DNA of 64,000 nt from Streptomyces lydicus (GTDB taxonomy: Bacteria > Actinomycetota > Actinomycetes > Streptomycetales > Streptomycetaceae), in the NCBI RefSeq assembly GCF_001729485.1, contig NZ_CP017157.1, positions 6,076,001-6,140,000 on the forward strand, written 5' to 3'. Both the position numbers and the translations under genes were made by a program. A model generated the notes under the pieces. That model was given only the letters and a program-made list of their open reading frames with translations, searched no databases and was not told the DNA's origin. Below are positions 29,637-60,428 of this stretch, piece by piece (position 1 is the first letter of the stretch; every line of letters begins with the position of its first letter).

Positions 29637-30857
29637 TCACGGGGACGGCGGCCCGTCGGTCCCGTGCGGCGCGATCGCCAGGATGGCCACGTCGTCGTGG
29701 AAGACCCGGGTGTGACGGGGCAGGTCGGTGTTGAGGAAGTCGATGACCTCGTCGGGGCCGGGGGCGGCGCCGTCGCCGAAGCGGTGCCGGAGGCGGTCGA
29801 GGAGCGGGTAGAAGACGCCGTTGTGGTCGCGGGCCTCGATCAGGCCGTCGGTGCACAGCAGGAGGACGTCGCCGGGGGTGAAGGGGTGGGTGTAGGCGAC
29901 GGGCTCCTCGTCGGCGAGGGTGCCGAGGCCCAGCGGAAGGGCCGGCGGACCGGTGAGGGCGGTGACCCGGCCGCCGGAGATCAGGACCGGCTCGATGTGG
30001 CCGTGGTTGACGATCGTCACCCGGCCGGATCGGGCTGCGTACTCGACCAGGGCGGCGGTGACGAACAGTTCGTTGTCGCGCAGCTCGTCGGCCTCGCGTG
30101 CCATCCGCCGCTCCATACGGGCCGCGACGGCCAGCAGGTCGCCGCCGTCGTCAACGGCCTCGCGGAAGCTGCCGAGGAGGGCGGCGACGGTGCGGACGGC
30201 CTTCAGTCCCTTGCCGCGGACGTCACCGATGATCGCGCGCTCGCCGGCCTCGGTGGCGCGGATGTCGTACAGGTCCCCGCCGACCATGGTGCCGACCTCA
30301 CCGGAGCGGTAGAGACCCGCCGCGAGGACGCGCCCGACCTCGTGCGGCACCGGGCGCAGCAGGGTGCGCATCAGCGCCTCGGCCACCGAGTGGGCGCGCA
30401 CCAGGTGCCGTTCCTGGCGCTGCCGGTGGGCGGCCAGCGCCACACCGAGCAGGCCGACCAGGCCGGTGTCGAGGTACGCGGCCACGTGGTGGGTCTCCCA
30501 CAGCTGGTGGAGGTTGTGGCCGGTGCAGCACGGGGTGCCGGCCACCACGCCCTCCAGGACGAGCGCGCAGAGCGTGACGGCGGCGACGCCGAGCGGGCCG
30601 AGGGCGTAGGCGGCGACCATGGGCAGCGCGATCAGCAGGAAGCTCACCGCCCAGTCCGTGGGCGTCACGGCCTCCAGCACCATGACGAACACGAGGTAGG
30701 CGAGCGGCAGCCAGCGCATCCACGCGGGGCGCCGGGGCGCCTCGAAGCCGCTGTTCTCCACGGTCCCCGCGCGCGTCCCGGCCGGGCCGCCGCGGTCCGG
30801 CCGGCGCTCGCGAGGCATCCGTTCGAGCGCCGGCTCACCCGGTCCCGATCTGTACAC
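29637..30857 (-). CDS. Membrane PP2C/SpoIIE-type serine phosphatase
   Basis: 406 aa. After a basic, disordered N-terminus come about four transmembrane helices (residues 45-150). The cytoplasmic PPM phosphatase domain has metal-binding motifs VGGDLYDI, IIGDVRGKGL, LLCTDGLIEAR and a final FHDDVAILAI. The GTG start at 30857 is chosen for AGGAG five bases upstream. The TTG at 30884 is less likely. These phosphatases usually act on anti-sigma factor antagonists. The gene lies 112 bp downstream of mtnP on the same strand but is probably a separate unit. Confidence 0.88.
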   Translation of the reverse strand: MYRSGPGEPALERMPRERRPDRGGPAGTRAGTVENSGFEAPRRPAWMRWLPLAYLVFVMVLEAVTPTDWAVSFLLIALPMVAAYALGPLGVAAVTLCALVLEGVVAGTPCCTGHNLHQLWETHHVAAYLDTGLVGLLGVALAAHRQRQERHLVRAHSVAEALMRTLLRPVPHEVGRVLAAGLYRSGEVGTMVGGDLYDIRATEAGERAIIGDVRGKGLKAVRTVAALLGSFREAVDDGGDLLAVAARMERRMAREADELRDNELFVTAALVEYAARSGRVTIVNHGHIEPVLISGGRVTALTGPPALPLGLGTLADEEPVAYTHPFTPGDVLLLCTDGLIEARDHNGVFYPLLDRLRHRFGDGAAPGPDEVIDFLNTDLPRHTRVFHDDVAILAIAPHGTDGPPSP

Positions 30858-30969
30858 GCGGGCTCCTGATACGACCGTGATCAAGAGCCTCAGCCTCGCG
30901 TGCCCGGAGGGCCGGGCCCCGCCATTACGCCGTCGGCGGGCATGTCCCGGGACCCGGCCGGTGCGGTGG

Positions 30970-31791
30970 TCAGGGCAGCGGGAAGGGCAGGTCGATGCCC
31001 GCGAGGGTGTCGGGGCAGGCGCAGGTGCGCTCCTTGGGGAGGCGGTCGAGGGTTTCCAGGACCAGGGCGCGCAGCCGCTCGGTGTTCTGGGCGAAGACCT
31101 TGAAGACCTCTTCCTGCGAGACGCTCTGGTGCGCGTCGATGCCCGCGTCGAGGTCGGTGACCAGGGCCACCGCGGTGTAGCAGAGGGCGAGTTCGCGGGC
31201 GAGCACCGCCTCGGGGTGTCCGGTCATGTTGACCAGCGACCAGCCCGCGGCGGCGTACCACTGCGATTCGGCGCGGGTGGAGAACCGCGGCCCCTGGATG
31301 ACGACCATGGTGCCGCCGTCCGTGGCCCCGGCCCCGGTCGCGGCGGCCGCCTCCAGCACCGCCTCCCTGCCGTGCGCGCAGTAGGGGTCGGAGAACGAGA
31401 CGTGCACCGCGCCCTCCTCGTAGAAGGTCTGCGTCCGGCCGCTCGTGCGGTCCACCAGCTGGTCGGGGACGACGACGGAGCCGGGGCCCAGCTCGGGGCG
31501 GAGCGAGCCGACCGCGCACGGGGCGAGGATCTGTCGGACGCCCAGCGAGCGCAGCGCCCAGAGGTTCGCCCGGTAGTTGATCCGGTGCGGCGGCAGGGCG
31601 TGGCCGCTTCCGTGGCGCGGCAGGAAGGCGACCCGCCGGCCGCCGATCTCGCTGAGGGTGATCGCGTCGGACGGCTCGCCGTAGGGGGTGTCGACGGTGT
31701 GGCGCTCGGCGTCCGCGAGGAGTTCGTAGAAGCCGCTGCCGCCGATCACGGCGAGCTCGGCGGTGGGGGCGGTGGTTCCGGTGCTGGTCAT
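30970..31791 (-). CDS. mtnP: S-methyl-5'-thioadenosine phosphorylase
   Basis: 273-aa trimeric-type purine nucleoside phosphorylase of the MTAP branch. It has the phosphate loop IGGSGFYE, FLPRHGSGH, HRINYRANLWALRSLG, CAVGSL, QGPRFSTRAESQWY, NMTGHPEAVLARE and TDLDAG. The Asp in TDLDAG is the residue expected for a 6-aminopurine, favouring adenine over hypoxanthine nucleosides. It splits methylthioadenosine (and potentially 5'-deoxyadenosine) into adenine and methylthioribose-1-phosphate. It is the last gene of the NRPS-mtn transcription unit, 14 bp after mtnC. The longer frame covering mtnC/mtnD is an extension only. Confidence 0.9.
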   Translation of the reverse strand: MTSTGTTAPTAELAVIGGSGFYELLADAERHTVDTPYGEPSDAITLSEIGGRRVAFLPRHGSGHALPPHRINYRANLWALRSLGVRQILAPCAVGSLRPELGPGSVVVPDQLVDRTSGRTQTFYEEGAVHVSFSDPYCAHGREAVLEAAAATGAGATDGGTMVVIQGPRFSTRAESQWYAAAGWSLVNMTGHPEAVLARELALCYTAVALVTDLDAGIDAHQSVSQEEVFKVFAQNTERLRALVLETLDRLPKERTCACPDTLAGIDLPFPLP

Positions 31792-31805
31792 GTGTCCTGT
31801 CCGGG

Positions 31806-32543
31806 TCAGGGCGCCGCGGGGGCGGGATCGTGGTCGGGGTCGGTGGGCAGGTGCAGTGCGGTCAGGTCGCCGAGGACGGGGTGGCCGTCGACGGCGGTGC
31901 CGCGGGGGTCGTCCGGGCGGCGTACGGCGAGGGTCTGCCAGCCGGCTCCGGCGGCGGCGTCCAGTTCGGCCGCCACGTCGCTGAGGAAGAGCGTGTGGCC
32001 GGGTGGCACCGCCAGGGCGCGGCTGATCGTGCGGTAGGAGTCCGGCTCGCGCTTGGGGCCGGCGGTCGTCAGGTCGAAGTAGCCGTCCAGCAGGCCGGTC
32101 AGATCGCCGTGGTTGCTGTGGGCGAACCAGTTGCGCTGGGCGGCCGCCGAACCGGAGGAGTAGATGTGGCGCTCGATGCCGGCGGCCTGCCAGCGGGCCA
32201 GCGCCTCCGGTACGTCGTCGTAGACGTGTCCGTGCAGGGAGCCGTCGGCGTAGCCCGCCGCCCAGATCTCGCCCTGAAGTGCCTTGAGCGGGGCCGCTTT
32301 GACGTCGGCGTCGGTCCAGGCGTGCAGCGCGGCGACCGCGCCGGCCTCGTCGAGGCCCGGTGCCCCGGTCGTGGTGCGGATGTCCTCCAGGGTGCGCGTC
32401 CACCGGGGTTCGCCGCGATGGGCGGCGAACCAGGCGGCGAAGCGCTCGCGCGCGTACGGGAAGAGCACCGTGTGGACGTGGTCGGCGGAGCCGGTGGTGC
32501 CCTCGATGTCCAGGACGACGGCGCGTACGGGGGCGCGGCTCAC
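31806..32543 (-). CDS. mtnC: Enolase-phosphatase E1 (acireductone synthase)
   Basis: 245-aa HAD-superfamily enzyme. Motif I VLDIEGTTG, motif II YSSGSA, motif III lysine in GPKREPDSY and motif IV LFLSDVAAELDAA are all present, with the long cap between I and II characteristic of MtnC. It converts diketo-methylthiopentyl phosphate to acireductone by enolisation and dephosphorylation. The GTG start overlaps the mtnD stop (GTGA), giving tight coupling. Confidence 0.92.
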   Translation of the reverse strand: MSRAPVRAVVLDIEGTTGSADHVHTVLFPYARERFAAWFAAHRGEPRWTRTLEDIRTTTGAPGLDEAGAVAALHAWTDADVKAAPLKALQGEIWAAGYADGSLHGHVYDDVPEALARWQAAGIERHIYSSGSAAAQRNWFAHSNHGDLTGLLDGYFDLTTAGPKREPDSYRTISRALAVPPGHTLFLSDVAAELDAAAGAGWQTLAVRRPDDPRGTAVDGHPVLGDLTALHLPTDPDHDPAPAAP

Positions 32544-33133
32544 CGGGCCGCCGGCCGCTGCGCGGGGGCGACGAGCTCGTCGAGGGAGGGGAAGGAGCGG
32601 GCGAGGGGATCGGCGGTGAAGTCCCCGACCCAGCCGTCCTCCTCCTCGAAGAAGCGGATGGCCGCGAAGTCGGGGCGGGTGCCCATGTCGAACCAGTGCC
32701 GGGTGCCGGCCGGCACCGAGAGCAGGTCGCCCGCCTCGCAGACCGTGGCGAAGACCCGGTCGCCGAGGTGGAGGTAGAAGCAGCCGCGGCCGTGGGCGAA
32801 GAACCGCACCTCGTTCTCGGCGTGCCGGTGCTCCTCCAGGAAGGTGGTGCGGGCCTTGGCGGCCCGCGCGGCGCTCTCCGGGTCGTCGGACGGGTGCAGC
32901 CGGGCCACGTCCACGACGCGGAAGCCGTGCCGGTCGCACAGCTCACCGACCTCCGCGCGATAGCGGTCCAGCAGCTCGTCGCTGTCGTCCTCCGGGGCGA
33001 CCGGGCCGCGGACCGGCCAGTGGTTCAGCTCGACGCCGTGGCCGGCGAGTTCGCCGGCGATGGTGGCGGCGTCGGTGGTGCGCAGCAGCACGGTGCCCGG
33101 TGCGTCGTCCGGCATCAGCTGAAGGAGCGTCAT
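32540..33133 (-). CDS. mtnD: Acireductone dioxygenase
   Basis: 197-aa cupin. The metal ligands are visible as EEHRHAENEVRFF (His-x-His-x3-Glu) and a later His in GTRHWFDMG. The C-terminus carries FEEEDGWVGDF. The Fe form yields ketomethylthiobutyrate and formate, the methionine-salvage outcome. A Ni-bound form would divert to methylthiopropionate and CO. The ATG at 33133 overlaps the mtnAB stop (ATGA). A longer frame to 33250 was rejected because it would run through the end of mtnAB. Confidence 0.92.
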   Translation of the reverse strand: MTLLQLMPDDAPGTVLLRTTDAATIAGELAGHGVELNHWPVRGPVAPEDDSDELLDRYRAEVGELCDRHGFRVVDVARLHPSDDPESAARAAKARTTFLEEHRHAENEVRFFAHGRGCFYLHLGDRVFATVCEAGDLLSVPAGTRHWFDMGTRPDFAAIRFFEEEDGWVGDFTADPLARSFPSLDELVAPAQRPAAR

Positions 33134-34854
33134 GCGGTCTGTCCCTCCCAGGGCGTGGTCTCGGGCACGGTCTCGGGCGAGACCGCGGCGGCCCGGGCCG
33201 GCCGGTTGCCGGCGTCGAGCAGCACGAGTTGGCAGATCGCCTCCAGGCACTCCAACCGGTTGCGCGCCTGCGCCAGATCGCGGCCCCAGACCGTGACCCC
33301 GTGCTCGGCGATGAGCAGCGCGGGCGGAGCGTCCGGCCGGTCCCGCAGGTGGGCCGCCACCTCGGTGGCTATCCTCCCGACATCCGCGTGGTTGGGGAAG
33401 ACGGGAATTTCGGTGCCGGACGGATCGGCGAGGCCCAGGCCCTTGAGGAGTTCGAAGTCGCGCAGCGGCAGCCCGGTCCGGCCGGCCCCGGCCGTCTCCC
33501 GGGACCGGCGGCCGGCCACCGCCGTCGTGTAGGGGGCGTGCACGTGGATGACGGCCCGGGCGTCGGTGGTGCGGTACACCGCGGCGTGGATGGCGGTCTC
33601 CGCGGAGGCGCGGGGGCCGTCGGGGTCGACCGGCTGCGCGGTACCGGCGTCCACGGCGACCATGTCACGGCCGGTCAGTTCGCCCTTGTCCCGCCCGCTG
33701 GCGGTGATCAGCGCGGTCGGTTCCGCGGGGTCCGGGCGGACGGATATGTTGCCCGAGGTGCCGGGCATCCAGCCGCGCTCGTAGAGGGTGCGGGCCATGG
33801 CGGCCACCGCGTCGCCGAGCCGGGGCGCGTCGGGGACCGCCGCGGGCTCCTCGCGCGGCCGGACGACCCGGCTCTCGGAGACGATCGCGGTGATCAGCTC
33901 GGCCGGCGTGACGTCGAAGGCGGGGTTGAAGACGGCGGTTCCGGCCGGGGCCACCGGGGCGCCGGCGCACTCGGTGACCTCCGCCGCACCGCGCTCCTCG
34001 ATCTTGATCCCGGCACCGGTCGCCAGGTCGGGGTCCCGGGTGGACTCGGGCGCGATCACCAGGAACGGGACCGCGTGGCGGGCCGCGGCCACCGCGATGC
34101 CGTACGTACCGATCTTGTTCGCCACGTCCCCGTTGGCGGCTATGCGGTCGGCGCCGACCAGGACGCAGTCCACCATGCCGGTGGCGAGCGCGGCGGCGGC
34201 CGCCGAGTCGACGCACAGCCGGTGCGGTACGCCCGCCTCGCGCAGTTCCCAGGCGGTGAGGCGGGCGCCCTGCAGCAGCGGGCGGGTCTCGTCGACGAGG
34301 ACCTCGGCCACCCGCCCCCGGGCGGCGAGTTCGAGTATCACGCCGAGGGCGGTGCCGATCGCGGTGGTGGCCAGCCGGCCGGTGTTGCAGTGGGTGAGCA
34401 GCCGCAGCGGCCGGTCGGGCAGCAGGCCGACGAGCAGGTCCGCCGCGCGCCGCACCATCGCCCCGTTCACCTCCGCGTCCTCGCGCAGCATGGCCAGCCC
34501 CTCGTCGAGGACGGCCCGGTGGCCCTCGTCGAGGCGGGTGAGCACCCGGCGGACGGCCCACTCCAGGTTGACCGCGGTCGGGCGGGCCGCCACCAGCCGG
34601 CGGGCGTCCTCACGCACCGCCGCCCGGTCGACGCCGCCGCCGGGCAGTCGGTGGCGCAGCGCGGACAGTGCCACGCCGAGGGCGCCCGCCAGGCCGATGG
34701 CCGGTGCGCCGCGGACGGCGAGGGTGGAGACGGCCTCGATGACCTCGTCCACCGTGCGCAGCCGGAGCTGCCGGGTGGCGTGCGGCAGGACGCGCTGATC
34801 GATGGTGACGATCGCGCCGTCCTCCCAGGAGAGCGAGGGCTGCTGGGCGTTCAC
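33130..34854 (-). CDS. mtnAB: Fused MtnA-MtnB: methylthioribose-1-phosphate isomerase and methylthioribulose-1-phosphate dehydratase
   Basis: 574 aa with two complete enzymes in one chain. Residues about 1-340 are MtnA, with RGAPAIG, the catalytic Cys in [10 protein letters not shown] and the catalytic Asp in [20 protein letters not shown]. Residues about 355-574 are MtnB, a class II aldolase-like dehydratase, with GTSGNISVR, the zinc ligands [10 protein letters not shown] and a later HGVTVWG. Both active sites look intact. The GTG start overlaps the stop of the upstream NRPS (GTGA), so this housekeeping-type pathway is translationally coupled to peptide synthesis. The two activities are usually separate genes. 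Confidence 0.9.
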
Positions 34855-37800
34855 GGGGACTCCAGGGGTTCGGTGGCCTTCAGCGCGGCCTCGATGACCG
34901 GCCCGGCCTCCGCCAAGGCGTCCGCCGTGACGATGCCGGTGTGGTCGCAGGCGACGGCGTAGCTGTCCACCCGGCCACCGAGGAGCGGGTGCCAGACCTC
35001 GGACGCGGGACCCGCGGGGTGTTTCGGGGCCGCCGCGTCGAGGAAGAGCACCTGCCCCGGGTATCTGCCCGGGCGGTGCTCCGCCAACGCGCGCACATTG
35101 TGCTGCGCGATCCGGAGCAGGGTGCCGACGGCCCGGTCGTCGAGGGAGCCGAGGGCGCTGCCGGCCGCGCGCAGGGCGGCCGCGAGAGCCGCGGCTCCGG
35201 GCAGGCCGCCCTCATAGGGCGGTTCCGGCGCGGTGATGCCGTCCAGGGCGAGCGGGACCAGGGCGTCCGCGTCGAGCGAGGTGCCCCAGCCGAGCACGTC
35301 GCCGGGGTAGGCGTCGAGCAGCACCAGCAGGGCCGGCGGCTCACCCCGCCCCGCCAGGTCGACCGCCATCTGCTGGGCGACGGTGCCGCCGAACGACCAA
35401 CCGGCCAGGATGTACGGGCCGTTCGGCCGGATCGCGCGCAGCCGCTCCAGATAGCCGGCGGCGAGCTCGCGGACCGTACGGGGGGCGGCCCGGTCCGCGG
35501 TGAGCCGGGGGTCCTGGAGCGCGTGGACCGGGTGACCGGCCGGGATGTGCCGCAGCAGGGCCGCGTAGCACCAGCTCAGGCCGTTCGCCGCGGGGATCAG
35601 GAACACCGGGGTGCGCTCGCCCTCGGCGCGGAAGGTGAGGACCTCGCCGAGGCCCTCCCCGTCGGTGCCCTCGTCCAGCAGGGCGCTCAGTCCGGCGACC
35701 GTCGGCGCCCGGAACACGTCCGGTACGCCGAGGTCCACGCCGAGGGCGGCGCGGATCCGGTGTGCCAGGCGGGTGGCCAGCAGGGAGTGCCCGCCGAGTT
35801 CGAAGAAGCCGTCGTCGATGCCGACCTGGGGTATCCCGAGGACCTCGGCGAACAGCCGGCACAGGACGGATTCGCGGGGGCCGCGCGGGGCCCGGCCGCC
35901 GTCGGCCGCCGCGAACCGCGGGGCGGGCAGCGCCCGGCGGTCGAGCTTCCCGTTGGCGGTCAGCGGGAGGGCGTCGAGCGTCAGCAGCGCCGCGGGCACC
36001 ATGTAGTCGGGCAGCCGGTCGGCGAGCCGGGCGCGGAGTGCGGTGGTGTCGACCGGTGGCCCGGCCGGGTCCGGCACCAGGTAGCCGACCAGCAGTTTGT
36101 CGCCGGTCCGGTCCTCGCGGACGGCGACCGTGGCCTGGCCGACGCCGGGCAGCGCGCTCAACGCGGCCTCGACCTCGGCGGGTTCGACCCGGAAGCCGCG
36201 GATCTTGACCTGGTCGTCGGCCCGTCCGAGGAAGACGAGCCGGCCGTGCGGGTCCCACCGGACCAGGTCGCCGGTGCGGTACATCCGCTCGCCGGGCCCG
36301 CCGAACGGGCAGGCCACGAAGCGCTCGGCGGTCAGCGCGGCGCGCCCGGTGTAGCCGCGGGCGAGCCCGGCGCCGGCCAGGTACAGCTCGCCGGGCACCC
36401 CGGCGGGCACCGGCCGCAGTGCCTCGTCCAGCACGTAGGCGCGGGTGTTGTCCATCGGGCGGCCCAACGGGACGCTCCCGCCGGCCCGTTCGCCGGGCAG
36501 CCAGGACGTCTGGGTGACGCACAGCGTGGTCTCCGTCGGCCCGTACAGCGCCCGTACGACGGTGTCCGGGCAGGCCGCCCGCACCCGGTCGACGGCCTGT
36601 CCGGAGACCGCGTCGCCGCCGGTCAGCACCTCGCGCACGGAGGCGAAGCAGCCGGCGTGGTCCTCCGCTACGGTGCGGAACAGGCCGGCGGTCAGATGGA
36701 CCCGGGTGATGCGGTAGCGGTCGATCAGTCCGGCGAGGGCGTCGCCGTCGGTGGCGCCCGGCGGTGCGACCACCACGCAGCCGCCGGACAGCAGCGTCAC
36801 CCAGATCTCGTAGGTGGCGGCGTCGAAGGCGTGCGGGGCGTGGAAGAGCACCCGGTCGTCCGGGCCGAGGCCCCAGCAGGAGTCCCGGGCCAGGTCCAGT
36901 ACGCCCTGGTGCGTGGTGCCGATGCCCTTCGGCTCGCCGGTCGACCCCGAGGTGTACATGACGTAGGCGAGCTGGTCGGGGTGGACGTCCGGCAGCCCGG
37001 CCGGGGGCGCGGCGGCGTCGGCGGCCGGTGCGCCGACGGTCAGGACGGTGTGCGGTCCGGCGGTGACCGGATGGCCGCGGAACGCCTCGTCCACCAGCAG
37101 TACCGGGCTGCCGGCCTCCTCGACGGCCGCCCGCATCCGCGGTACGGGGTGGGCGGCGTGCAGCGGCAGGTAGGCGGCGCCGGCCTTCAGGACGGCGAGC
37201 TGCGCCACCAGGAGGTCCGCCGACCGCTCCATGAGCAGCGGAACGGGCGCGTCGGCGGACACCCCGGCCGCGATCAGCCGGCGCGCCAACCGCTCGGCGC
37301 GGTCGCTGAGTTGAGCGTAGGTGAGGGTGCGGCCGGCGTCGAGCACGGCGGTGGCGTCGGGTGCGGTGGCCGCCCGGGCGTCGAAGGCCGCGACGAGCGA
37401 GCCCGGCGCGGACGGCCGGACGGCGCCCTGCCACTGCCGGGTCACCTGCGTCAGCTCCGCGTCGGTGAGCAGGTCCAGCTCGCCGACCGGCCGGTCGGGG
37501 TCGGCCGCGGCCCGGTCCAGCAGCCGGAGCAGCCGCTCGCCGAGCGCCCGCGCGGTGGGCTCGTCGAACAGGGCGCTGCTGTACGTCAGGGAGAGCTCCA
37601 GCAGGTCCTCGTCGGGCCGCTCGTCGAACGCGAACTCCAGGTCGAACTTGGCGCCCTGGGCCTGCGCCCGGTCCGTGACGCACGTCGTCCCGGCGAGGTC
37701 CAGGCCGAGGTCGCCGCCGTACGCCCAGGAGAGCATCACCTGGAAGAGCGGGTGGCGGGCGAGCGAGCGGGGCGGCTGGAGCTCCTCGACGAGCCGGTCG

Positions 37801-39077
37801 AAGGGCAGGTCCTGGTGGCGGAAGGCGGCCAGGTCGGCCTCCCGGACCCGCGCGAGCAGCTCACCGAAGGCGGGGTTGCCCGAGGTGTCGGTGCGCAGCA
37901 CGAGCGTGTTGACGAAAAAGCCGGCCACGTCGTCGAGGAGTTCGTCGCCGCGCCCGGACACGACCGTGCCCAGCGGGATGTCGGTGCCCGCGCCCATCCG
38001 GGTCAGCAGGGTCGCCAACGCCGCCTGCACGACCATGAGTTCCGTGGCGTGGCCGTCGCGGGCCAGCCGCTTCACGGCCGCCCGGGTGGAGGCGCCGACC
38101 GGCAGCCGCAGGGTGCCGTGCGCCGAGCCGGCCCGGGGCGGCCGGGGGCGGTCGGCGGGCAGCGGCAGCTCCTCGGGCAGTTCGCGGAGCGCGGTGCGCC
38201 AGTGGGCGAGCGCGCGGGCGGCCGCGCTGCCGGGTACGGACTCCTCGTCGAGCCAGGCCCGCTGCCACAGCGCGAAGTCCGCGTACTGGACCGGCAGCGG
38301 CTGCCACTGCGGGGCCCGGCCGTGGCGGCGCGCGGCGTAGGCGACGGACAGGTCCCGGCCCAGGCGGCTCACCGACCAGCCGTCGCAGGCGATGTGGTGG
38401 GCGACCAGGACCAGCACGGAGCGGTCCGGCGCGGTGGTGAACAGCTCGGCGTACAGCGGGAGTTCGGCGGTGAGGTCGAAGACGTGCGCCGCGGCGGCGG
38501 CGACCGCCGCGGGCAGCCCGTCCGGTGTGCAGGTGGTCACCGGCAGGCCCGTGCGGGCCTCGTCCGGGGGCAGTACGCGCGAGGTCGGCTCGCCGTCGCG
38601 CGCACCGAACAGCGTCCGCAGCGCCTCGTGCCGGGCGACGAGATCGCCGAGCGCGGCGGCCAGCGCCGCCTCGTCCACCACGCCCTCGATCCGGGTGACC
38701 AGCGGCACGTTGTAGGTCGCGCTCGGCCCCTCCAGGCGGTCCAGGAACCACAGACCGCGCTGGCCGGAGGAGAGCGGTACCGACGGCGGGCGCGGTGCGA
38801 CACGCGCCACGGGGCGCCGCGCGGGCTCCTCGCCGTGCAAGTGCCGGGCCAGCGTCGCCGCCGTCTGGCTGCGGAACAGTGCCCGCACGCCGATCTTGAC
38901 GCCCAGCACCGCCCGGATCCGGTTGACCATCCGGACGGCCAGCATCGACGTCCCGCCCAGGGCGAAGAAGTTGTCGTCGGGGCCGACGTCGGGGACGTCG
39001 AGGACCTCGGCGAAGAGACCGCGCAGGATCTCCTCCTGCGGACCGCGGGGCGCGGCACCGGTACCGTCCAGTGTCAT
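34851..39077 (-). CDS. Nonribosomal peptide synthetase T-C-A-T-TE, predicted 4-hydroxyphenylglycine module
   Basis: 1408 aa. Domains in order: an N-terminal carrier ([12 protein letters not shown], Ser44); a condensation domain about 97-545 with HHIACDG at 227-233; an adenylation domain about 565-1045; a second carrier ([10 protein letters not shown], Ser near 1096); and a thioesterase about 1130-1400 (GWSFGG, Ser near 1224; late His in CDHTG). The A-domain pocket residues read by eye are D-A-Y-H-L-G-L-L-C-(K), the pattern of 4-hydroxyphenylglycine activators. The ATG at 39077 has GAGGT upstream. The first carrier has no adenylation domain in this protein and must be charged in trans. The gene is divergent from the A-T-C synthetase and coupled to mtnAB. 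Confidence 0.93.
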
Positions 39078-39293
39078 AGGGGAAGACCTCATCCGCTGGG
39101 GATCCGACGGGGATCCGGTGGGGACGGCCGGGGCGTTCCTCGTGTACGCGTCCCTTCGGTGCGCTCCCGATGCCCCCGAATGCGCTCACCGGAAATGCGA
39201 AGCGAGACGAAGGGATGCGTGCGGATTTCGAGGAAAGGCGCTTTCGGCGCCCATTGAACCCGCCCCGGCAAAGCCGCACAAGCGCCGGAGGGT

Positions 39294-39309
39294 GTCCCGC
39301 CGGCGGGAC
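39294..39309. promoter_or_regulatory. Palindromic candidate operator (LmbU-type)
   Basis: GTCCCGCCGGCGGGAC, a perfect 16-bp palindrome 12 bp upstream of the -35 hexamer of the NRPS promoter. It contains the core CGCCGGCG which, as I recall, is the reported LmbU recognition core. The same sequence with three more matching bases on the left recurs inside the LmbU-family regulator gene of this cluster (48123-48144). Confidence 0.5.
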
Positions 39310-39321
39310 GGCGGACGTTCC

Positions 39322-39351
39322 TTGACACTCATTCGGCCGCCCCCCTACGTT
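39322..39351 (+). promoter_or_regulatory. Predicted sigma-70-type promoter for the rightward NRPS operon
   Basis: TTGACA at 39322-39327 and TACGTT at 39346-39351 with an 18-bp spacer. The predicted transcription start is about 40-80 bp upstream of the NRPS start candidates. Confidence 0.55.
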
Positions 39352-39441
39352 GCCGTTCGCCGCCACCCGAGGGTGGCGAAAGACCGCAGCGAAAGCCGAA
39401 TGCAGAACAGGGCGATCCATCGCGCGGAAAGGGGATTCGGC

Positions 39442-42400
39442 TTGCCGGAAGCGCCGGGCACCATCACCTCGGTATTTGCCGCGCGAGTGGGCGAGAACAA
39501 GGATTCCACCGCGGTCGGTCAAGGCGGTACCGCTCTCTCCTACCGGGAACTCGACGAAAAGAGCGACGTTCTCGCGCGAGCGCTGACCGCTCTCGGGGTG
39601 GCGCCCGAGGACCGCGTCGGCATCCTGATGGAACGCGGCGTGGACGTCGTGGTCGCGCTGCTGGGCACACTGAAGGCCGGCTGCGCGTACGCGCCGTTGG
39701 ACATCCGCTCGCCCGCGGCCCGGCTGCGCACGGTCGTCGAGGAGTGCGGCACCCGGCTCGTCCTCGTCGACCGCCCGGAGCGTGCCGCCGCGCTCCGCGA
39801 CGGCAGCGGCGGCGGCCCCGGCGGCGTGCACGTCCGGGTGGTCGGTGAGCTGACGGCCCGCGCCCTGCCACCGGTCGCCGGGCCCCCGCCGGTGCACCCG
39901 CAGCAACTCGCCTACGTCATCCACACCTCGGGCTCGACCGGCCGCCCCAAGGGCGTGGCGATCAGCCACCGGGACGTGGTGGCCTTCGCCGCGGACGGGT
40001 GCTGGGAAGGCATCGACCGGCGGGTGCTGCTCCAGTCGCCGCTGGAGTTCGACGCCTCGGTGTACCAGATCCTGGTCCCGCTGCTGCGCGGCGGGACCGT
40101 GGTCGTCGCGCCACCGGGCCGGCTGGACGCGGCGCAGCTGGCACGGACCCTCGCCGAGGAGCGGATCACCTCCACCTTCATCACGCCCTCGATGTTCAAC
40201 GTGCTGACGGAGGAGTCCCCGGACGCCTTCGCGCACGGCTGCCAGGTGTGGATGGGCGGCGAGGTCGCCTCCCCCGGCGCGGTCGCCCGGACGCTCGCGG
40301 CCTCCGGCCCGCGCTCCGTCGTCAATGTCTACGGCCCGACCGAGGTGACCGTCTTCGCCACCCGGCACCTCGTCACGGAGGTCGGTGACGGCCCCGTCCC
40401 GATCGGCTCCGCGCTGGCCGGGGTGCGCACCCACGTCCTGGACGAGGAGTTGCGCCCGGTCGGTGCGGGCGAGGTGGGCGAGCTGTATCTCGCCGGGCGG
40501 GGAGTGGCCCGGGGCTACTGGGGGCGGCCGGCACTGACCGCGGGCCGCTTCGTCGCGGACCCGTTCGCGGGCGACGGCAGCCGGATGTACCGCACCGGCG
40601 ACCTGGTGCGGCGCCGCGCGGACGGGCTGCTGGAGTACTTCGGACGGCAGGACAACCAGGTCAAGCTGCGCGGGTTCCGGATCGAACTCGGCGAGATCGA
40701 GCACCAGTTGACCCGCCGCGCCGACGTGGCCCGGGCCGCGGTGGTCACGCTCCCGGACCGCCACGGCGGCCACCACCTCGTGGCGTACGTCGTGCCCGCC
40801 ACGCCGGCCGACGGCGCCCGGGGCGACTGGCCGGCCCGGCTCCTCGACGCGCTGCGGGCGCACCTGCCGGGACACATGGTGCCCGCCGCCTGTGTGGTGG
40901 TCGAGCGGCTGCCGCTGACCAACAACGGGAAGCTTGATGTGCGGGCGCTGCCCGCACCGGTCTTCGAGGGCGCCGGACGGGCGCCGCGCAACCGGGCCGA
41001 GCGGCTGCTGTGCGAGGTGTTCGCGGACGTCCTCGGGGTGGCCGGGGTCGGCATCGACGACAGCTTCTTCGCGCTGGGCGGGCACTCGCTGACCGCGACC
41101 CGGGCGGCGGCGGCCATCGCGTCGGCGCTCGGCGTGCGGCCGGGTCTGGAGGACCTGTTCGCGGCCCCGACGCCCGCCGGGCTCGCCGCCCGGCTGGCGG
41201 ACCGGCCGGACACCGGTGCCGGGCCCGTGCCGCCGGCCGCCGCGCCCGCGGACGGCCCGGTCGCGCTCTCGCACGCCCAGCGGCGGCTGTGGCTGCTCTA
41301 CCAACTGATGGCGGACGCCGACCCCGGCTATCACATCCCGCTGCTCTTCCGGCTGTCCGTGCCGGTGGACACCGCGGCGTTCGACGCCGCCCTGGCAGAT
41401 GTGACGGCCCGCCACGAAACCCTGCGCACGGTCTTCCCGGCCGACGGGGAGACCGCCCACCAGCGGATCCTCGACCCCGCCGACGCCGCGGTCCGGCTCA
41501 CCGTCACCGACTGCCGGCTCGCCGCACTCGACGCGCTGCTGACGGCCGCGGTCCGGGCACCCTTCGACCTGGAGACCGAGCCGCCGCTGCGGGTGACGCT
41601 GTTCCGCACCGGGGAGGAGCAGGTCCTGCTGGTGGTGCTGCACCACATCGCCGCCGACGGCTGGTCCTTCACCCCGCTGTTCCGCGACCTGTCCCGGGCG
41701 TACGCGGCCAGGAGGGCGGGCGCGGCACCCGCCTTCCGGCCGCTGCCCGTCCAATACCGGGACCACGCCGCCTGGCAGCGCACGGTGCTGGGCGACCGCG
41801 ACGACCCCGGCAGCCTCCTGGCGCGGCAGCTCGCGCACTGGCGTACCGCGCTGGCCGGCATCCCCCTGTGCACGCCGCTGCCCGGTGACCGCCCCCGCCC
41901 GGAGTACGCCGGCGGCGCGGGCGCGGTGGTCGGGTTCACGGTCCCCGCGGAGCTGCGCCGGGAGCTGGACGAGCTGGCCCGGGCCGCCGGCTGCACCCTC
42001 TTCGTGGTGCTCCAGGCCGCGCTGGCGGGCCTGCTGACCCGGCTCGGCGGGGGCGAGGACATCGTCGTCGGCACCCCGACGGCGGGGCGCGCCGACCCGG
42101 CACTGGACGATCTGGTCGGCTTCTTCGTCAACACCGTTGTGCTGCGCACCGACACCTCCGGCGACCCCACCTTCGGTGAGCTGCTGCGCCGGGTGCGCGA
42201 GGCGTGGATCCCCGCGTACGCCCACCAGGACGTCCCCTTCGACCTGCTGGTGGAGGCCGTCAACCCGCCGCGGAGCCTGGCCCACCACCCGGTGTTCCAG
42301 ATCGCGTTCGGCCTGCTCAACACCGAGGACTCGGCGCTCGAACTGGACGGCACCCGCCACCACTGGCGGCTGGCGGGGACCGGCGCGGCGCGTTTCGACC

Positions 42401-42609
42401 TCGCCTTCGACGCGGTCAGCCGCACCGACGCCGACGGCGCGCCCGGTGACCTGGACATCAGCCTGGAATACGCCACCGAGCTGTTCGACCGGGCGACTGT
42501 GGAACGGCTGGCGGACCGGTACGTCCGGCTGCTGCGCGCCGCGGCCGCCGCACCGGACCAGCCGCTGCACACCTTCGCCCTCGACCCCCGGGAGAGCCCC
42601 GCGCCATGA
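39442..42609 (+). CDS. Nonribosomal peptide synthetase A-T-C
   Basis: 1055 aa from the TTG at 39442, chosen because AAGGGG lies about seven bases upstream. An in-frame ATG at 39400 is the alternative. The adenylation domain is about residues 10-500 ([21 protein letters not shown]; final NNGKLD Lys). The carrier has GGHSLTATR (Ser near 548). The condensation domain is about 605-1040 with HHIAADG near 734. The pocket residues by eye are D-A-Y-F-W-G-V-V-F-(K), suggesting an aliphatic or other hydrophobic residue; I do not assign one. Lacking an upstream C domain, it is a starter module whose own C domain passes the residue to a carrier on another protein. Its stop overlaps the MbtH start. Confidence 0.92.
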
Positions 42610-42827
42610 ACCCCTTCGACGACGAGAACGGCACCTTCAAGGTCCTGGTGAACCCCGAGGGCCAGTACTCGCTGTGGCCCGCCTTCGCACCGGTCCCGCC
42701 GGGCTGGGAGGTACGGCTGGACGACCGCCCCCGTGCGGAGTGCACCGGGTACGTCGAGGAGCACTGGACCGATCTGCGGCCGGCCTCCCTCGTCGCAGCG
42801 ACGGCCGCGCCGGACTCCCGGAGCTGA
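42606..42827 (+). CDS. mbtH: MbtH-family NRPS accessory protein
   Basis: 73 aa, ATG overlapping the NRPS stop (ATGA). Family hallmarks are present: [33 protein letters not shown] and [12 protein letters not shown], including the invariant Ser-Leu-Trp and second Trp. MbtH proteins bind adenylation domains and are often needed for their solubility or activity. The location between an NRPS and Hpg biosynthesis genes fits a helper for one or more of the three A domains here. Confidence 0.95.
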
Positions 42828-42831
42828 CCCG

Positions 42832-44139
42832 GTGGACCTGGAACTCCCCGGTCTGCACGGGTCGCTGGGCTCGCCGGTCATCGAGTCGATGAACTTCCTC
42901 AACGAGGTGGCCCAGCAGTACCCGGACGCCCTGTCGTTCGCGGCCGGGCGACCGTACGAGGGCTTCTTCGACATCGGGGCGGTGCACCGCTATCTGGACC
43001 GGTTCGTGGCGCACGTCCGCGCCGGGGCCGGCGGCGACGAGGCGCGGGTGCGCCGCACGCTGCTCCAGTACGGCCGCACCAAGGGGATCATTCACGACCT
43101 GGTGGCGAAGAACCTCCGGATCGACGAGGGCATCGAGGCCGACCCGGAATCGATCGTGGTGACGGTCGGCTGCCAGGAGGCGCTGTTCCTGACCCTGCGG
43201 GCGCTGCGCCGGACCGAGCGGGACGCCGTACTGGCCGTCATCCCCTGCTACGTCGGCCTGTCGGGGGCCGCCGAACTCGCCGACCTGCCGGTCCTGCCGG
43301 TCGCGAACTCGGCGGACGGCATCGACCTGGACGACCTGGTGCGGACCGTGGAGCGGGCGAAGGCGGACGGTCTGCGGCCGCGGGCCCTGTACGTGGTCCC
43401 CGACTTCGCCAACCCCTCGGGCATCAGCATGCCCCGGGACACCCGTGAACGGCTGCTGGCGCTGGCCGAGGAGCACGGCTTCCTGCTGCTGGAGGACAAC
43501 CCCTACGGGCTGTTCCACGGGACGGCCGGGCGGCCCCCGGCGCTGAAGGCGCTGGACTCCGCGCGGCAGGTCGTCTACCTGGGGTCGTACGCCAAGACGG
43601 GCCTCCCCGGGGCACGCATCGGCTTCGTCGTCGCGGACCAGCCGGTGACGGGGGCGGGCCCGGAGTCCGGCGGGCGGCAGTCGCTCGCCGACCAGCTCGC
43701 CAAGATCAAGAGCATGCTGACGGTGAACACCCCGCCGCTCGCCCAGGCCGTCCTCGGCGGCAAGCTGCTCACCCACGACTGCGACCTGCGGGCCGCCAAC
43801 ACCCGCGAGGCACAGGTCTACCGGGACAACCTCCGGCACGTGCTGGACGGGCTGGCCGAGCACTTCCCGCCCGGCAGCTCACCCGAGGTCACCTGGAACG
43901 CGCCCACCGGCGGCTTCTTCGTCGTCCTGACCCTTCCGTTCGCCGCCGATGACGCGCTGCTCGCCCTGTCGGCCCGCAAGCACAAGGTGCTCTGGACCCC
44001 GCTCCACCACTTCTACGGCGACGGTGCGGCCCGCCGGCAGATCCGGCTGTCCTTCAGCCAGCTGACCCCGGACGAGATCCGCGAGGGCCTGCACCGGCTG
44101 GCCGCCTTCATCGGTGAGCTGAGCGCCCACCACCCTTAA
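42832..44139 (+). CDS. hpgT: 4-hydroxyphenylglycine aminotransferase
   Basis: 435-aa PLP-dependent fold-type I aminotransferase with a GTG start and GGAG upstream. HpgT-type features: an N-terminal LHGSLGSPVIESMNFLNEV, QYGRTKGIIHDLVAKNLR, VGCQEALFLTLRAL, VPDFANPSG, the PLP lysine in GSYAKTGLPGARIGFV (near residue 254), and LAKIKSMLTVNTPPLAQAV. It transaminates 4-hydroxybenzoylformate to L-4-hydroxyphenylglycine, typically using tyrosine as donor, which regenerates 4-hydroxyphenylpyruvate for HmaS. The ACC-synthase alternative was considered and rejected. It lies four bases after mbtH. Confidence 0.9.
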   Translation: MDLELPGLHGSLGSPVIESMNFLNEVAQQYPDALSFAAGRPYEGFFDIGAVHRYLDRFVAHVRAGAGGDEARVRRTLLQYGRTKGIIHDLVAKNLRIDEGIEADPESIVVTVGCQEALFLTLRALRRTERDAVLAVIPCYVGLSGAAELADLPVLPVANSADGIDLDDLVRTVERAKADGLRPRALYVVPDFANPSGISMPRDTRERLLALAEEHGFLLLEDNPYGLFHGTAGRPPALKALDSARQVVYLGSYAKTGLPGARIGFVVADQPVTGAGPESGGRQSLADQLAKIKSMLTVNTPPLAQAVLGGKLLTHDCDLRAANTREAQVYRDNLRHVLDGLAEHFPPGSSPEVTWNAPTGGFFVVLTLPFAADDALLALSARKHKVLWTPLHHFYGDGAARRQIRLSFSQLTPDEIREGLHRLAAFIGELSAHHP

Positions 44140-44151
44140 GGAGACTCCCGG

Positions 44152-45222
44152 ATGACCCACGCCGACGGCCCCCTCCAGGGGCTCGCCATCGATCACCTCG
44201 GCTTCGCGGTCCGCGACCTCGCCGAGGCCGCCGAGCCGTTCACCGCACGCTACGGATTCGGCGTCCTGGCCGGGCCGGACGCCGTCGGCACGCCCGGCGG
44301 CGGCGCCCGTTCGCTGGCCGTGGGCGCCGACCGCATCCGGCTCGTGCTGACCGCCGCCGAGGACCCCGACCACCCCGCGGCCCGCTACGTCGAGCGGCAC
44401 GGCGACGGGATCTGCGACATCGCGCTGAGCACGGCGGACGCCGCCGGCGCGTTCGCCGAGGCGGTGCGGCGGGGCGCCGAGCCGCTGGCCGGGCCGGCCG
44501 AGCGGGGCGGTGTCCTGACCGCCTCGGTCGCCGGGTTCGGCGATGTGGCGCACACCTTCGTGCAGCGCACCGCCGCGGCCGGTCCGGTGCCGGCGGCCGG
44601 CCGGCCCGCCCCCCTGGAGAGGGGGCTGCACGCGGTCGACCACATCGCGGTGTGCCTGGAGCCGGGGCGGCTGGGGCCCACCGTCGAGTACTACGAGCGC
44701 GCCCTGGGCTTCGCCGCGGTGTTCACCGAGCGCATCATCGTCGGCGCCCAGGCGATGGACTCGATCGTGGTGCAGAACGACGCCGGCACGGTCACCCTCA
44801 CCCTGATCGAACCGGACACCACCCGGTCCCCGGGCCAGATCGACCGGTTCCTCACGGCGCACGGCGGGGCGGGGGTCCAGCACGTCGCCTTCACCTCGGA
44901 CGACATCGTCGGTTCCGTGGGGCGGCTGGCGTCCCGCGGCATCGGCTTCCTGGACACCCCGAGCACCTACTACGACCTGATACCCGGCCGGCTGACGCTG
45001 TCCCGGCACTCCGTCGACGAACTGCGCGACCTGAACATCCTGGTCGACGCGGACCAGGACGGCCAGCTGCTGCAGATCTTCACCCGCTCCGAACACCCCC
45101 GCGGCACGCTGTTCTTCGAGGTCATCGAGCGGCTCGGGGCCCGCACGTTCGGCAGTGGCAACATCAAGGCGCTGTACGAGGCCGTCGAGCTGCAGGAGAA
45201 CAGGTCGGGTGCCACGCGGTGA
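44152..45222 (+). CDS. hmaS: 4-hydroxymandelate synthase
   Basis: 356-aa two-domain vicinal-oxygen-chelate dioxygenase. The iron ligands are seen as DHIAV, VQHVAFTS and FFEVIER in the C-terminal half. The chain is close in length to HmaS. Placement between hpgT and hmO decides for hydroxymandelate synthase rather than the related catabolic 4-hydroxyphenylpyruvate dioxygenase, since the fold alone does not. It converts 4-hydroxyphenylpyruvate and O2 to 4-hydroxymandelate. AAGGAG lies upstream of the ATG. Its stop overlaps the hmO GTG start. Confidence 0.9.
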   Translation: MTHADGPLQGLAIDHLGFAVRDLAEAAEPFTARYGFGVLAGPDAVGTPGGGARSLAVGADRIRLVLTAAEDPDHPAARYVERHGDGICDIALSTADAAGAFAEAVRRGAEPLAGPAERGGVLTASVAGFGDVAHTFVQRTAAAGPVPAAGRPAPLERGLHAVDHIAVCLEPGRLGPTVEYYERALGFAAVFTERIIVGAQAMDSIVVQNDAGTVTLTLIEPDTTRSPGQIDRFLTAHGGAGVQHVAFTSDDIVGSVGRLASRGIGFLDTPSTYYDLIPGRLTLSRHSVDELRDLNILVDADQDGQLLQIFTRSEHPRGTLFFEVIERLGARTFGSGNIKALYEAVELQENRSGATR

Positions 45223-46316
45223 GCGCGCCGGCCGCGGCGGAGCCGCTGTGCCTTGCCGACGTCGAGCGCGCGGCGGCGGCCGTACTCCCGGCTGCCGTAC
45301 GGGACTTCGTGGCCGGCGGCAGCGGTGACGAGTCCGCCCAGGCCGCCAACCGCACCGCCCTGGACCGGGTCCGGCTGGTGCCGCGGGTGCTGACCGCGGT
45401 GGCGGAGCCGGACTGCGCGGTGGACCTGGTGGGCACGGCCGCCGCGCTGCCGGTCGCCGTCGCGCCGATGGCCTACCACCGGCTGCTGCACCCCGACGGC
45501 GAGCTCGCCACCGCCCGGGCGGCCCGTGCGGCGGGCGTGCCCTTCGTGGTCAGCACGCTCAGCAGCTGCCCGGTCGAGGAGATCGCGGCCGAGGGCGCGG
45601 ACCTCTGGTTCCAGCTGTACTGGCTGCGGGACCGCGGCCGGGTGCGCGCGCTGGTGCGCCGGGCCGAGGCGGCCGGCTGCCGGGCGCTCGTGGTGACCGT
45701 GGACGTGCCGGTGATGGGCCGGCGGCTGCGCGACATCCGCAATGCGTTCGGCCTGCCGGAGTCGGTCACCGCGGCCCATCTCACCGGCGGCGCGGCCTCG
45801 TTGGCGCACGAGCGGCGGGCCGGGCGCTCGGCGGTCGCCACGCACACCGGGTCGGCCTTCGAACCGGCGCTGGGCTGGGCGGACGTGGCCTGGCTGCGGG
45901 AGCACACCCGGCTGCCGCTGGTGCTGAAGGGCGTGCTCGATCCCCGGGACGCCGTACAGGCGGCCGGGGCGGGCGTGGACGCGGTGGTGGTGTCCAACCA
46001 CGGCGGGCGCCAACTGGCGGGCGCGGTACCGAGCGTGACGGCGCTGGCGCCGGTGGTGGACGCGGTGGCCGGGCGCTGCCGGGTGCTGCTGGACAGCGGG
46101 ATCCGCGGCGGCACCGACGTCCTGCGGGCGCTGGCGCTGGGTGCCGAGGGGGTGCTGCTGGGCCGCCCGCTGCTGTGGGGGCTGGCGCTGGACGGAGCGG
46201 CCGGGGCCGAGCTGGTGCTGCGCCTGCTGCACACCGAATTCCGGGAGGCGCTGCTGCTGTCGGGCTGCCGGGACGCCGCTGCCGCCCGCGGGCTGGGCAC
46301 CGTGACCCTGGCCTGA
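45219..46316 (+). CDS. hmO: 4-hydroxymandelate oxidase (FMN-dependent)
   Basis: 365-aa alpha-hydroxy-acid oxidase of the glycolate oxidase fold. It has VAPMAYHRLLHPDGE, FVVSTLSSCPVEEIA, FQLYWLRDR, VTVDVPVMGRR, LVLKGVL, VVSNHGGRQL (catalytic His near residue 261), LLDSGIRGGTDVLRALALGA and GRPLLWGL. It oxidises 4-hydroxymandelate to 4-hydroxybenzoylformate, the HpgT substrate. The GTG start overlaps the hmaS stop (GTGA). It is the last gene of the rightward operon, with 18 bp to the convergent regulator. Confidence 0.92.
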   Translation: MSAPAAAEPLCLADVERAAAAVLPAAVRDFVAGGSGDESAQAANRTALDRVRLVPRVLTAVAEPDCAVDLVGTAAALPVAVAPMAYHRLLHPDGELATARAARAAGVPFVVSTLSSCPVEEIAAEGADLWFQLYWLRDRGRVRALVRRAEAAGCRALVVTVDVPVMGRRLRDIRNAFGLPESVTAAHLTGGAASLAHERRAGRSAVATHTGSAFEPALGWADVAWLREHTRLPLVLKGVLDPRDAVQAAGAGVDAVVVSNHGGRQLAGAVPSVTALAPVVDAVAGRCRVLLDSGIRGGTDVLRALALGAEGVLLGRPLLWGLALDGAAGAELVLRLLHTEFREALLLSGCRDAAAARGLGTVTLA

Positions 46317-47363: not shown

Positions 47364-47383
47364 AAGTGTGCAGGTTACATTCG

Positions 47384-47398
47384 TGCACCCCTTGTGCA
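47384..47398. promoter_or_regulatory. Inverted repeat upstream of the LuxR-type regulator
   Basis: TGCAC-CCCTT-GTGCA with perfect 5-bp arms. A second short repeat, CACA-AG-TGTG, is at 47361-47370. They lie between the divergent regulator and small-peptide genes and could be autoregulatory sites. The assignment is tentative. Confidence 0.35.
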
Positions 47399-47476
47399 GA
47401 CCATCGATCCGGCCAGGCCGAAGAGGATTGTCCGAGGCGCCAGCCACATCCTTGGCCGCACAATGGGGGACCACAA

Positions 47477-47659: not shown

Positions 47660-47796
47660 GGCCCCGTTCGAGCAATTCCTGGACTTGCGTTCACCTCAGT
47701 CGTGTGCTGGGTCCACGGGCCGACCGTCCCGTGACCCGCCGCGGATGCGCCGGTGCCGGTCGGCCCGGTCGGAAGCAACTGCACCGAGGAGAAGCT

Positions 47797-49564: not shown

Positions 49565-49620
49565 CGGCACCGGCCGACCGCCGCACCCACCCCACCTCCG
49601 CCGGCACAAGGAGCTTGTCC

Positions 49621-57104: not shown

Positions 57105-57291
57105 CGCCGGGAGACAGTCGGCGGCATGCGGACGACCACCGCCTGACTTACCGTTGTTCGGACAGTTCGAGCGGTTCGGACAAGAAATCCACCGGTTCGG
57201 GGAGAGCTCGTTCTTCGAAGGCGGGTCCGCCGATTCCCATGCGGCGCAGTTCGTGCGCCGGGCGGACCACAGTCGGCAAGGAGTGAATCCC

Positions 57292-58536: not shown

Positions 58537-60428
<1,892 letters not shown>

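Follow-up and report, generated by a model that had tools for sequence, protein, structure and literature searches.

A methionine salvage operon behind a peptide synthetase gene in Streptomyces lydicus: possible recycling of a by-product of radical SAM chemistry

Introduction

Why would a peptide synthetase gene be followed by genes for methionine salvage? The question is raised by a 64,000 nucleotide stretch of Streptomyces lydicus DNA, hereafter the window (G000:C1:6076001-6140000, in an 8.2 Mb single-contig genome; G and L numbers are our labels for genomes and loci). Here, the nonribosomal peptide synthetase (NRPS) gene NRPS1 precedes an mtn operon encoding an MtnA-MtnB fusion, MtnD, MtnC and MtnP. 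A first-pass annotation proposed that the peptide pathway releases methylthioadenosine (MTA) from S-adenosylmethionine (SAM), for recovery by the Mtn enzymes, and that no SAM-consuming source is visible. The latter point needs correction. The radical SAM gene at 53742-55712, for which that annotation considered just 5'-deoxyadenosine production, is a candidate, as its family includes an Orf29-like branch; judged from sequence relationships, it is the likely MTA source. The explanation that we favour, at somewhat less than an even chance, is that the mtn genes are the by-product recycling module of the peptide cluster. Briefly, SAM methylated by the radical SAM protein would become a small-ring residue, and the MTA expelled would be reclaimed. 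In the titles and abstract openings of open-licence literature, we found no description of an NRPS cluster that includes an mtn operon.

The mtn operon follows NRPS1

The genes concerned lie on the minus strand in the following order.

34851-39092, minus strand: NRPS1, with thiolation (T), condensation (C), adenylation (A), T and thioesterase (TE) domains in the order T-C-A-T-TE (Pfam: two PP-binding, one condensation, one AMP-binding, one thioesterase); the start is probably an internal ATG at 39077
33130-34854, minus strand: mtnA-mtnB fusion, methylthioribose-1-phosphate isomerase/methylthioribulose-1-phosphate dehydratase (TIGR00512, 377 bits, cut-off 279; TIGR03328, 158 bits, cut-off 137)
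32540-33133, minus strand: mtnD, acireductone dioxygenase (Pfam ARD, 91.6 bits, cut-off 27; best PDB relative 1zrr)
31806-32543, minus strand: mtnC, acireductone synthase (enolase-phosphatase; TIGR01691, 220 bits, cut-off 128)
30970-31791, minus strand: mtnP, S-methyl-5'-thioadenosine phosphorylase (PRK07823, 445 bits, cut-off 306; best PDB relatives are MTA phosphorylases)

Direct reading confirmed this arrangement and every junction reported at first pass. The NRPS1 stop overlaps the mtnAB start as GTGA (34851-34854), mtnAB overlaps mtnD as ATGA (33130-33133) and mtnD overlaps mtnC as GTGA (32540-32543). The mtnP ATG (31791) is 14 bp past the mtnC stop (31806). The five activities leading from MTA to ketomethylthiobutyrate are likewise borne out by family membership (TIGR00512, TIGR03328, TIGR01691, PRK07823 and Pfam ARD). 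MtnP, MtnA, MtnB and MtnC pass curated cut-offs for aerobic methionine salvage. MtnD matched no model in the NCBIfam scan and passes the Pfam ARD cut-off. When aligned with 1zrr (recorded as E-2/E-2' protein), MtnD matches across the HxHxxxE...H stretch, which we take to hold the metal ligands. Hence, the activities are those of aerobic methionine salvage, with MtnA and MtnB fused as in many Nocardia. The differences are the position after an NRPS gene and the last transaminase, which is outside the operon: as first reported, a Pfam scan of cluster open reading frames (ORFs) found none within it. At other loci (L133, L137, L138 and L052), an aminotransferase lies with the mtn genes. The window genome has one MtnD only (a single match at E <= 1e-10), together with a second MtnA and a second MtnP.

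The operon is kept in homologous clusters

We scanned a genome collection with the radical SAM protein. Of 53 loci found, 28 were analysed (L064-L091). The 25 dropped (L092-L116) were nearly all metagenome-assembled, with best segments 22-29% identical. Note that the ORF-scoring neighbour lists are approximate and contain some antisense or mis-started ORFs; the presence of genes was judged mainly from tblastn and Pfam.

The same cluster was found at five loci, in a S. lydicus relative, S. endophytica, S. inhibens, NRRL S-337 (G193 in the genus sample) and S. nigrescens. The S. lydicus relative is nearest, with 96% identity for the radical SAM protein and 97% for MtnAB. All five genomes have the mtnAB fusion (82-97% identical), mtnD, mtnC and mtnP; none of the related clusters found lacked mtn genes. 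In four, the genes follow NRPS1 on the same contig. The S. inhibens contig ends inside mtnAB. Wherever the junction is visible, mtn position and strand are identical. Translational coupling of the operon to the synthetase, as first proposed, applies to the window strain and the S. lydicus relative, where NRPS1 and mtnAB overlap. It does not extend to the cluster family; the other three of the five visible junctions have gaps of 164, 164 and 158 nt. The ATGA overlap between mtnAB and mtnD occurs in all six clusters.

Between the window and its five relatives, ratios of nonsynonymous to synonymous substitution (dN/dS, by a simple counting method) were 0.11-0.16 for mtnP, 0.21-0.32 for mtnC, 0.19-0.40 for mtnD and 0.23-0.30 for mtnAB. 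These values indicate purifying selection, and we conclude that the whole route, including mtnC and mtnD, is maintained.

A candidate source of MTA

In Pfam and NCBIfam scans, no protein of the conserved block other than the radical SAM protein was recognised as a SAM-dependent enzyme.

53742-55712, plus strand: cobalamin-type radical SAM protein with a proposed role as a SAM C-methyltransferase like Orf29 and Swb7 (scores above cut-off for Radical_SAM and below it for B12-binding; ATG at 53742)

The protein carries the radical SAM motif CPYHCDFC. The B12-binding domain PF02310 is reported for many relatives and is below cut-off in the window protein. The predicted structure (pLDDT 82.8, pTM 0.85) has best PDB relatives that include TsrM, AprD4, TokK, CysS and OxsB (best E 4.9e-14; TM-score up to 0.44 by query). 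The modelled fold is that of a cobalamin radical SAM enzyme.

Published work describes chemistry of the kind needed. C-methylation of SAM by the cobalamin radical SAM enzyme Orf29 is followed by conversion of the product to 2-methyl-1-aminocyclopropane-1-carboxylic acid (2-methyl-ACC, or MeACC) by the pyridoxal phosphate (PLP) enzyme Orf30 (PMC7277169, restated in PMC10491745 section 3.1.1). MTA is lost when ACC forms; cyclisation of SAM or methyl-SAM expels it (PMC10491745 section 3.1.1). In the same MeACC cluster, the enzymes predicted to supply hydroxyphenylglycine are an FMN oxidase, an HPPD-like protein and an aminotransferase, encoded by orf26-orf28. Its six A domains have predicted specificities for Thr, Phe, Asp, Trp, hydroxyphenylglycine and Val, and orf23 has a single A domain that reportedly accepts ACC and MeACC (PMC7277169).

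How does the window protein relate to Orf29? A member of its family is present in 12 of 392 Streptomyces genomes. At the 28 loci analysed, some with short flanks, the gene beside the radical SAM gene encodes a PatB/MalY-like PLP protein in 11 cases, a DUF364 protein in five and neither in 12, five of which are of the window type. The PLP protein is a relative of PatB-type C-S lyases (301-309 bits, below the family cut-off of 340). In a tree of 31 radical SAM rows, 13 form a PLP branch (support 100/100). A further branch of 12 comprises six rows with a DUF364 partner and, nested among these, six of the window type, which have S. ipomoeae and G104 as nearest sisters (99/99). At the S. coffeae locus (L079), relatives of Hmo and HpgT are followed by the radical SAM gene and then the PLP gene, which is the order described for the MeACC cluster (PMC7277169). 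The Hmo match there is in fragments, and tblastn with window proteins found no HmaS. Hence, by gene order and partner, the PLP branch appears to match Orf29.

Within its own branch, DUF364 directly follows the radical SAM gene at all five loci (L071:11742-12809, L069, L070, L072 and L073). The radical SAM relative in G007 is broken across two frames and lies beside an intact DUF364 gene (L166:10328-12330). No solved relative of the S. ipomoeae DUF364 protein was found. We consider DUF364 proteins candidate SAM-using partner enzymes. A 22-residue DUF364 match in the window was rejected: it falls in the radical SAM tail, a region that the DUF364 ORF of S. ipomoeae shares, in another frame, with the radical SAM gene, and a search omitting that part found none.

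The window genome has a second NRPS cluster (G000:C1:3798001-3830000; L167, L168). It contains its own radical SAM gene of this family, a PatB-like PLP gene, a P450-like gene and an A-T protein, and is likely a MeACC-type peptide cluster. It is closely copied in the S. lydicus relative, S. nigrescens and NRRL S-337.

Radical SAM genes meet mtn operons elsewhere

Two other kinds of locus pair a SAM-using radical enzyme with an mtn operon. The first is S. ipomoeae 91-03 (L071), which resembles the window in having an mtn operon and a related radical SAM gene (75%). There, one strand encodes the radical SAM protein, DUF364, a transporter-like protein, a tRNA-binding protein, a MetK-like protein (named from sequence), an MtnA-phosphoribosyltransferase fusion, MtnB, MtnD, MtnC and MtnP. 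DUF364, the tRNA-binding protein, the MetK-like gene and the fusion distinguish this locus from the window, and no match to the window NRPSs was found on the 21 kb read. S. ipomoeae MtnD is outside the well-supported clade (100/96) formed by the cluster's MtnD copies, with modest support for nearby branches. Hence, the pairing of radical SAM and mtn genes may have arisen twice independently.

The second kind comprises eight arsenic clusters (G065, G085, G142, G161, G178, G248, G269 and G290). All eight encode an ArsL-like protein with CHHKCTYC and an RCCVKC end. ArsM-, CobW- and GNAT-like genes are also present (named from sequence, with Pfam support for three of these proteins only). In Burkholderia gladioli, ArsL transfers the SAM aminocarboxypropyl group to arsenite (PMC8552651), and MTA is the leaving group of such transfers (PMC10491745). 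Like the window, these eight Streptomyces clusters of the arsinothricin type have an mtn operon close to the gene for a SAM-using enzyme; in contrast, the stretches read have no match to the window NRPSs. Kinship between ArsL and the window radical SAM protein was considered and rejected. Their similarity is confined to a small part of the radical SAM core (25% identity over 61 columns in the best alignment), and the window protein has no RCCVKC end. An ATP-grasp ligase gene directly precedes mtnA in these clusters (L045:11026-12369 and the other seven), which suggests a peptide-like organoarsenical.

MetK-like genes are near mtn genes in G006, G283 and G288. Conversely, mtnAB-D-C sets at L132-L134 are near no recognised SAM enzyme. 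The mtn module is often, not always, near SAM-consuming chemistry. The proposal that the peptide pathway releases MTA for recovery is therefore supported in part, by mtn genes in five of five related clusters, by dN/dS of 0.11-0.40 and by these two kinds of locus.

A possible route to the peptide

The remaining cluster genes are as follows; the biosynthetic genes run on the plus strand, with the LuxR-type regulator and MFS protein on the minus strand among them.

38896-42609 (ORF as called), plus strand: NRPS2, A-T-C loading module (domain scan); the true start is probably ATG 39400
42733-44139, plus strand: HpgT-like aminotransferase (Pfam Aminotran_1_2; relatives adjoin Hmo and HmaS relatives in NRRL S-337)
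44152-45222, plus strand: HmaS-like hydroxymandelate synthase (best PDB relative 2r5v, E 5.5e-103, which we take to be HmaS)
45219-46316, plus strand: Hmo-like FMN-dependent oxidase (FMN_dh, 411 bits)
46335-47474, minus strand: LuxR-type regulator (GerE; kept in L064-L068)
47704-48444, plus strand: LmbU-family regulator (NF038070, 230 bits, cut-off 125)
48539-49564, plus strand: TauD-type iron/2-oxoglutarate oxygenase (PF02668, 141 bits)
49561-51420, plus strand: NRPS3, A-T (domain scan and A-domain alignment)
51482-52228, plus strand: free-standing thioesterase (PF00975, 128 bits)
52235-53743, minus strand: MFS-like exporter (MFS_1 below cut-off; kept in L064-L068)

The radical SAM gene follows. 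By mutual alignment, the A-domain codes are DAYHLGLLC in NRPS1, DAYFWGVVF in NRPS2 and DAQDFGLVD in NRPS3. We read these as 4-hydroxyphenylglycine, a branched or small hydrophobic residue, and a glutamine-like residue, respectively. The HmaS, Hmo and aminotransferase genes agree with the first reading; the window has HmaS, Hmo, HpgT and a hydroxyphenylglycine-type A domain, as a hydroxyphenylglycine NRPS cluster should. An ACC synthase role was also considered for the aminotransferase. Its matches to the plant enzymes reach only E around 1e-3 and relatives of the window gene sit with Hmo and HmaS, so the HpgT-like assignment is preferred. In L065-L068, the interval between NRPS2 and LuxR lacks both Hmo and HpgT. 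NRRL S-337 (L140) has a second HmaS-Hmo-aminotransferase set farther out, and S. nigrescens and S. endophytica have an Hmo some 8 kb past the stretch read.

The NRPS2 A domain is sister (100/99) to those of Actinokineospora enzanensis and Embleya hyalina (DAFFWGVIF), with 67% identity to the latter. Both adjoin radical SAM and PLP genes.

In the recycling explanation that we favour, the steps would be these. Going by its family, the radical SAM protein would C-methylate the methionine part of SAM. The methylated part would yield a small-ring amino acid, probably 2-methyl-ACC or a near relative, with MTA expelled once per peptide. From the domain order, NRPS2 would load the ring residue as the first unit. 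NRPS3 would supply a glutamine-type residue, perhaps hydroxylated by the TauD enzyme, and NRPS1 would add hydroxyphenylglycine, then release the peptide. MtnP, MtnAB, MtnC and MtnD would return MTA to ketomethylthiobutyrate, with a general transaminase and MetK closing the cycle. If the radical SAM protein works like other cobalamin methylases, each ring residue would consume about three SAM, so that recycling would pay. In support, S. ipomoeae, from the sister radical SAM clade, pairs its radical SAM gene with metK and the mtn set at a locus lacking a window-NRPS match. In this scheme, the substrate of the radical SAM protein, the release of MTA, the cyclase and the peptide product are all inferred.

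Several observations weigh against the scheme. Compared with the MeACC (norcoronamic acid) pathway of Orf29/Orf30 in Streptomyces violaceusniger and of Swb7/Swb6 (PMC7277169), the window has in common a cobalamin-type radical SAM gene in an NRPS cluster with hydroxyphenylglycine genes. It differs in having the mtn operon and no PLP cyclase gene beside the radical SAM gene, and the window protein is only 51-55% identical to the PLP type. Indeed, tblastn found no PLP or DUF364 partner gene anywhere in the window-type cluster. A PLP relative is encoded elsewhere in five of six genomes: in the second cluster of the window genome (C1:3811388-3812578), and in the S. lydicus relative (96%), NRRL S-337 (89%), S. 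nigrescens (89%) and S. inhibens (65%), a range of 65-100%. However, the best S. endophytica match is 33%. The A domains are also discordant. An A domain like that of NRPS2 occurs at only two of 11 PLP-type loci, and A domains read at the others differ in code and tree place. The S. coffeae A domain expected from gene order to load MeACC differs from that of NRPS2, with code DMYSQALVY and a position elsewhere in the tree. Code (DMYNMALIY) and tree position likewise set apart the A-T proteins encoded next to the PLP gene in the second cluster of the window genome and in related clusters. Furthermore, mtn genes are at none of the 11 PLP-type loci, the group nearest known MeACC chemistry (flanks up to 10 kb), and at only one of five DUF364-type loci, S. 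ipomoeae (one of the others is an 8 kb contig). G104 and G053, with radical SAM proteins 72-73% identical to that of the window, have only MtnD copies of 51-55%, and G007 has none. Hence, the mtn genes are an optional add-on. Finally, such radical SAM turnover should also make 5'-deoxyadenosine.

Cyclisation, given no PLP or DUF364 partner, would need another type of enzyme or closure on the synthetase, as with the SAM residue in colibactin (review PMC10491745); otherwise, the residue is a different one. A specific form of this idea, which we regard as doubtful, is that NRPS2 loads methyl-SAM and ring closure takes place on the assembly line or is catalysed by an unrecognised enzyme; in the sister radical SAM branch, DUF364 would serve as a new, PLP-free SAM cyclase. 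If so, cluster-borne mtn operons would be a general signpost to peptides or amino acids built from the SAM carbon chain. Either way, a testable function is placed on an unnamed radical SAM branch, and the question raised is which enzyme, if not a PLP cyclase, finishes the residue.

Alternative explanations for the operon

The radical SAM protein may make ordinary 5'-deoxyadenosine and methionine, with the operon dealing with the former. MtnP and MtnA would process the nucleoside, and either MtnB would act as an aldolase or the whole route would run to 2-oxobutyrate. Published work describes MtnP and MtnA acting on 5'-deoxyadenosine or on the sugar derived from it, and promiscuous aldolase activity for MtnB (PMC8102628, PMC6302742). 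The absence of any other recognised SAM enzyme from the block fits, and the first-pass suggestion that MtnP acts on 5'-deoxyadenosine here is possible. However, the aldolase route needs neither mtnC nor mtnD, yet both are kept in six of six clusters with dN/dS of 0.19-0.40. MtnB also passes the dehydratase cut-off, and an operon of this kind is present in ArsL-type clusters, from which MTA would be expected as product. We consider this alternative unlikely as the main role.

Slightly less probable still is hitch-hiking, where a mobile actinomycete salvage module settled by the synthetase and serves general metabolism only. MtnAB matches at E <= 1e-60 occur in 256 of 295 Streptomyces genomes, although only 61 have any MtnD. 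Among the best 120 of 7932 matches, MtnA-MtnB fusions are widespread, common in Streptomyces and above all in Nocardia. The mtnAB-D-C sets near no recognised SAM chemistry (L132-L134), and the lack of nearby mtn genes at most loci of the radical SAM family, would also be expected. Conversely, constant mtn position and strand argue against hitch-hiking, as does the MtnD distribution. MtnD at least 80% identical to that of the window was found only in the two cluster-holding genomes of the 295. At 64% or more, it was found in 14 of 61: G000 and G193 (this cluster), the eight arsenic clusters, G006, G288, G031 and G153. The best copy in the other 47 is at most 57% identical. Stand-alone mtn loci from 13 of those 47 (L149-L160 and L162), several sharing one neighbourhood, have MtnD in a separate clade (100/100).

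Alternatively, a different aminocarboxypropyl transfer or SAM cyclisation, such as one placing an ether on hydroxyphenylglycine, might make the MTA. In nocardicin, an ether on hydroxyphenylglycine comes from such a transfer. The hydroxyphenylglycine genes are present and MTA release is typical of these reactions (PMC10491745). Set against this, Pfam and NCBIfam scans of the cluster proteins recognised no such transferase, and we think the idea improbable. Least probable is the first-pass suggestion that a route intermediate (ketomethylthiobutyrate or acireductone) is a building block: beyond gene order, no support was found, all three A domains keep the aspartate that, as a rule, is typical of amino-acid loading, and S. 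ipomoeae and the arsenic clusters have a like operon with no window-NRPS match in the stretches read.

Other mtn loci and neighbouring genes

In biosynthetic clusters, mtn operons could be a search term for SAM-carbon-chain chemistry; gene names alone do not reveal it. In the genus sample, this term picks out ArsL-type clusters, the NRPS cluster described here and several small ones as yet unexplained. One of these small clusters, in G006 (L036/L037), combines mtnABDCP with a MetK-like gene, genes resembling those for a methyltransferase, cysteine synthase and dioxygenase, a DUF364 gene and an MFS-like gene; DUF364 was assigned by Pfam and the others by inspection or BLAST. At L136 (Streptomyces sp. 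MUM 2J), an mtnA-type gene has as neighbours a P450-like gene and genes for a tRNA-binding protein, a pair of ClpP-like proteins and a large NRPS (assigned by inspection and BLAST). MtnA is fused to, or beside, an adenine-phosphoribosyltransferase-like domain at L071:15789-17372, L038, L052 and L138; this would also reclaim adenine. An AzeJ-like azetidine synthase was sought in the G157 mtn cluster and rejected, since the candidate matched only methyltransferase chains, weakly.

Genes flanking the cluster were not counted as part of it.

29637-30884: SpoIIE-type gene, adjoining mtnP in all four relatives read on that side

An empty-site test with the SpoIIE gene was set aside; its nearest relative (G035) has no other window genes around it, bar a distant ABC match. 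On the other side, a P450 gene (55788-57104) and a type III polyketide synthase-like gene (57082-58344) adjoin the cluster and are kept in L064, L065, L067 and L068. The pair resembles a flaviolin operon and is probably a separate operon of that type. Next comes a dnaK-grpE pair (58537-60998). No match was found at that place in NRRL S-337; dnaK is present in the S. lydicus relative.

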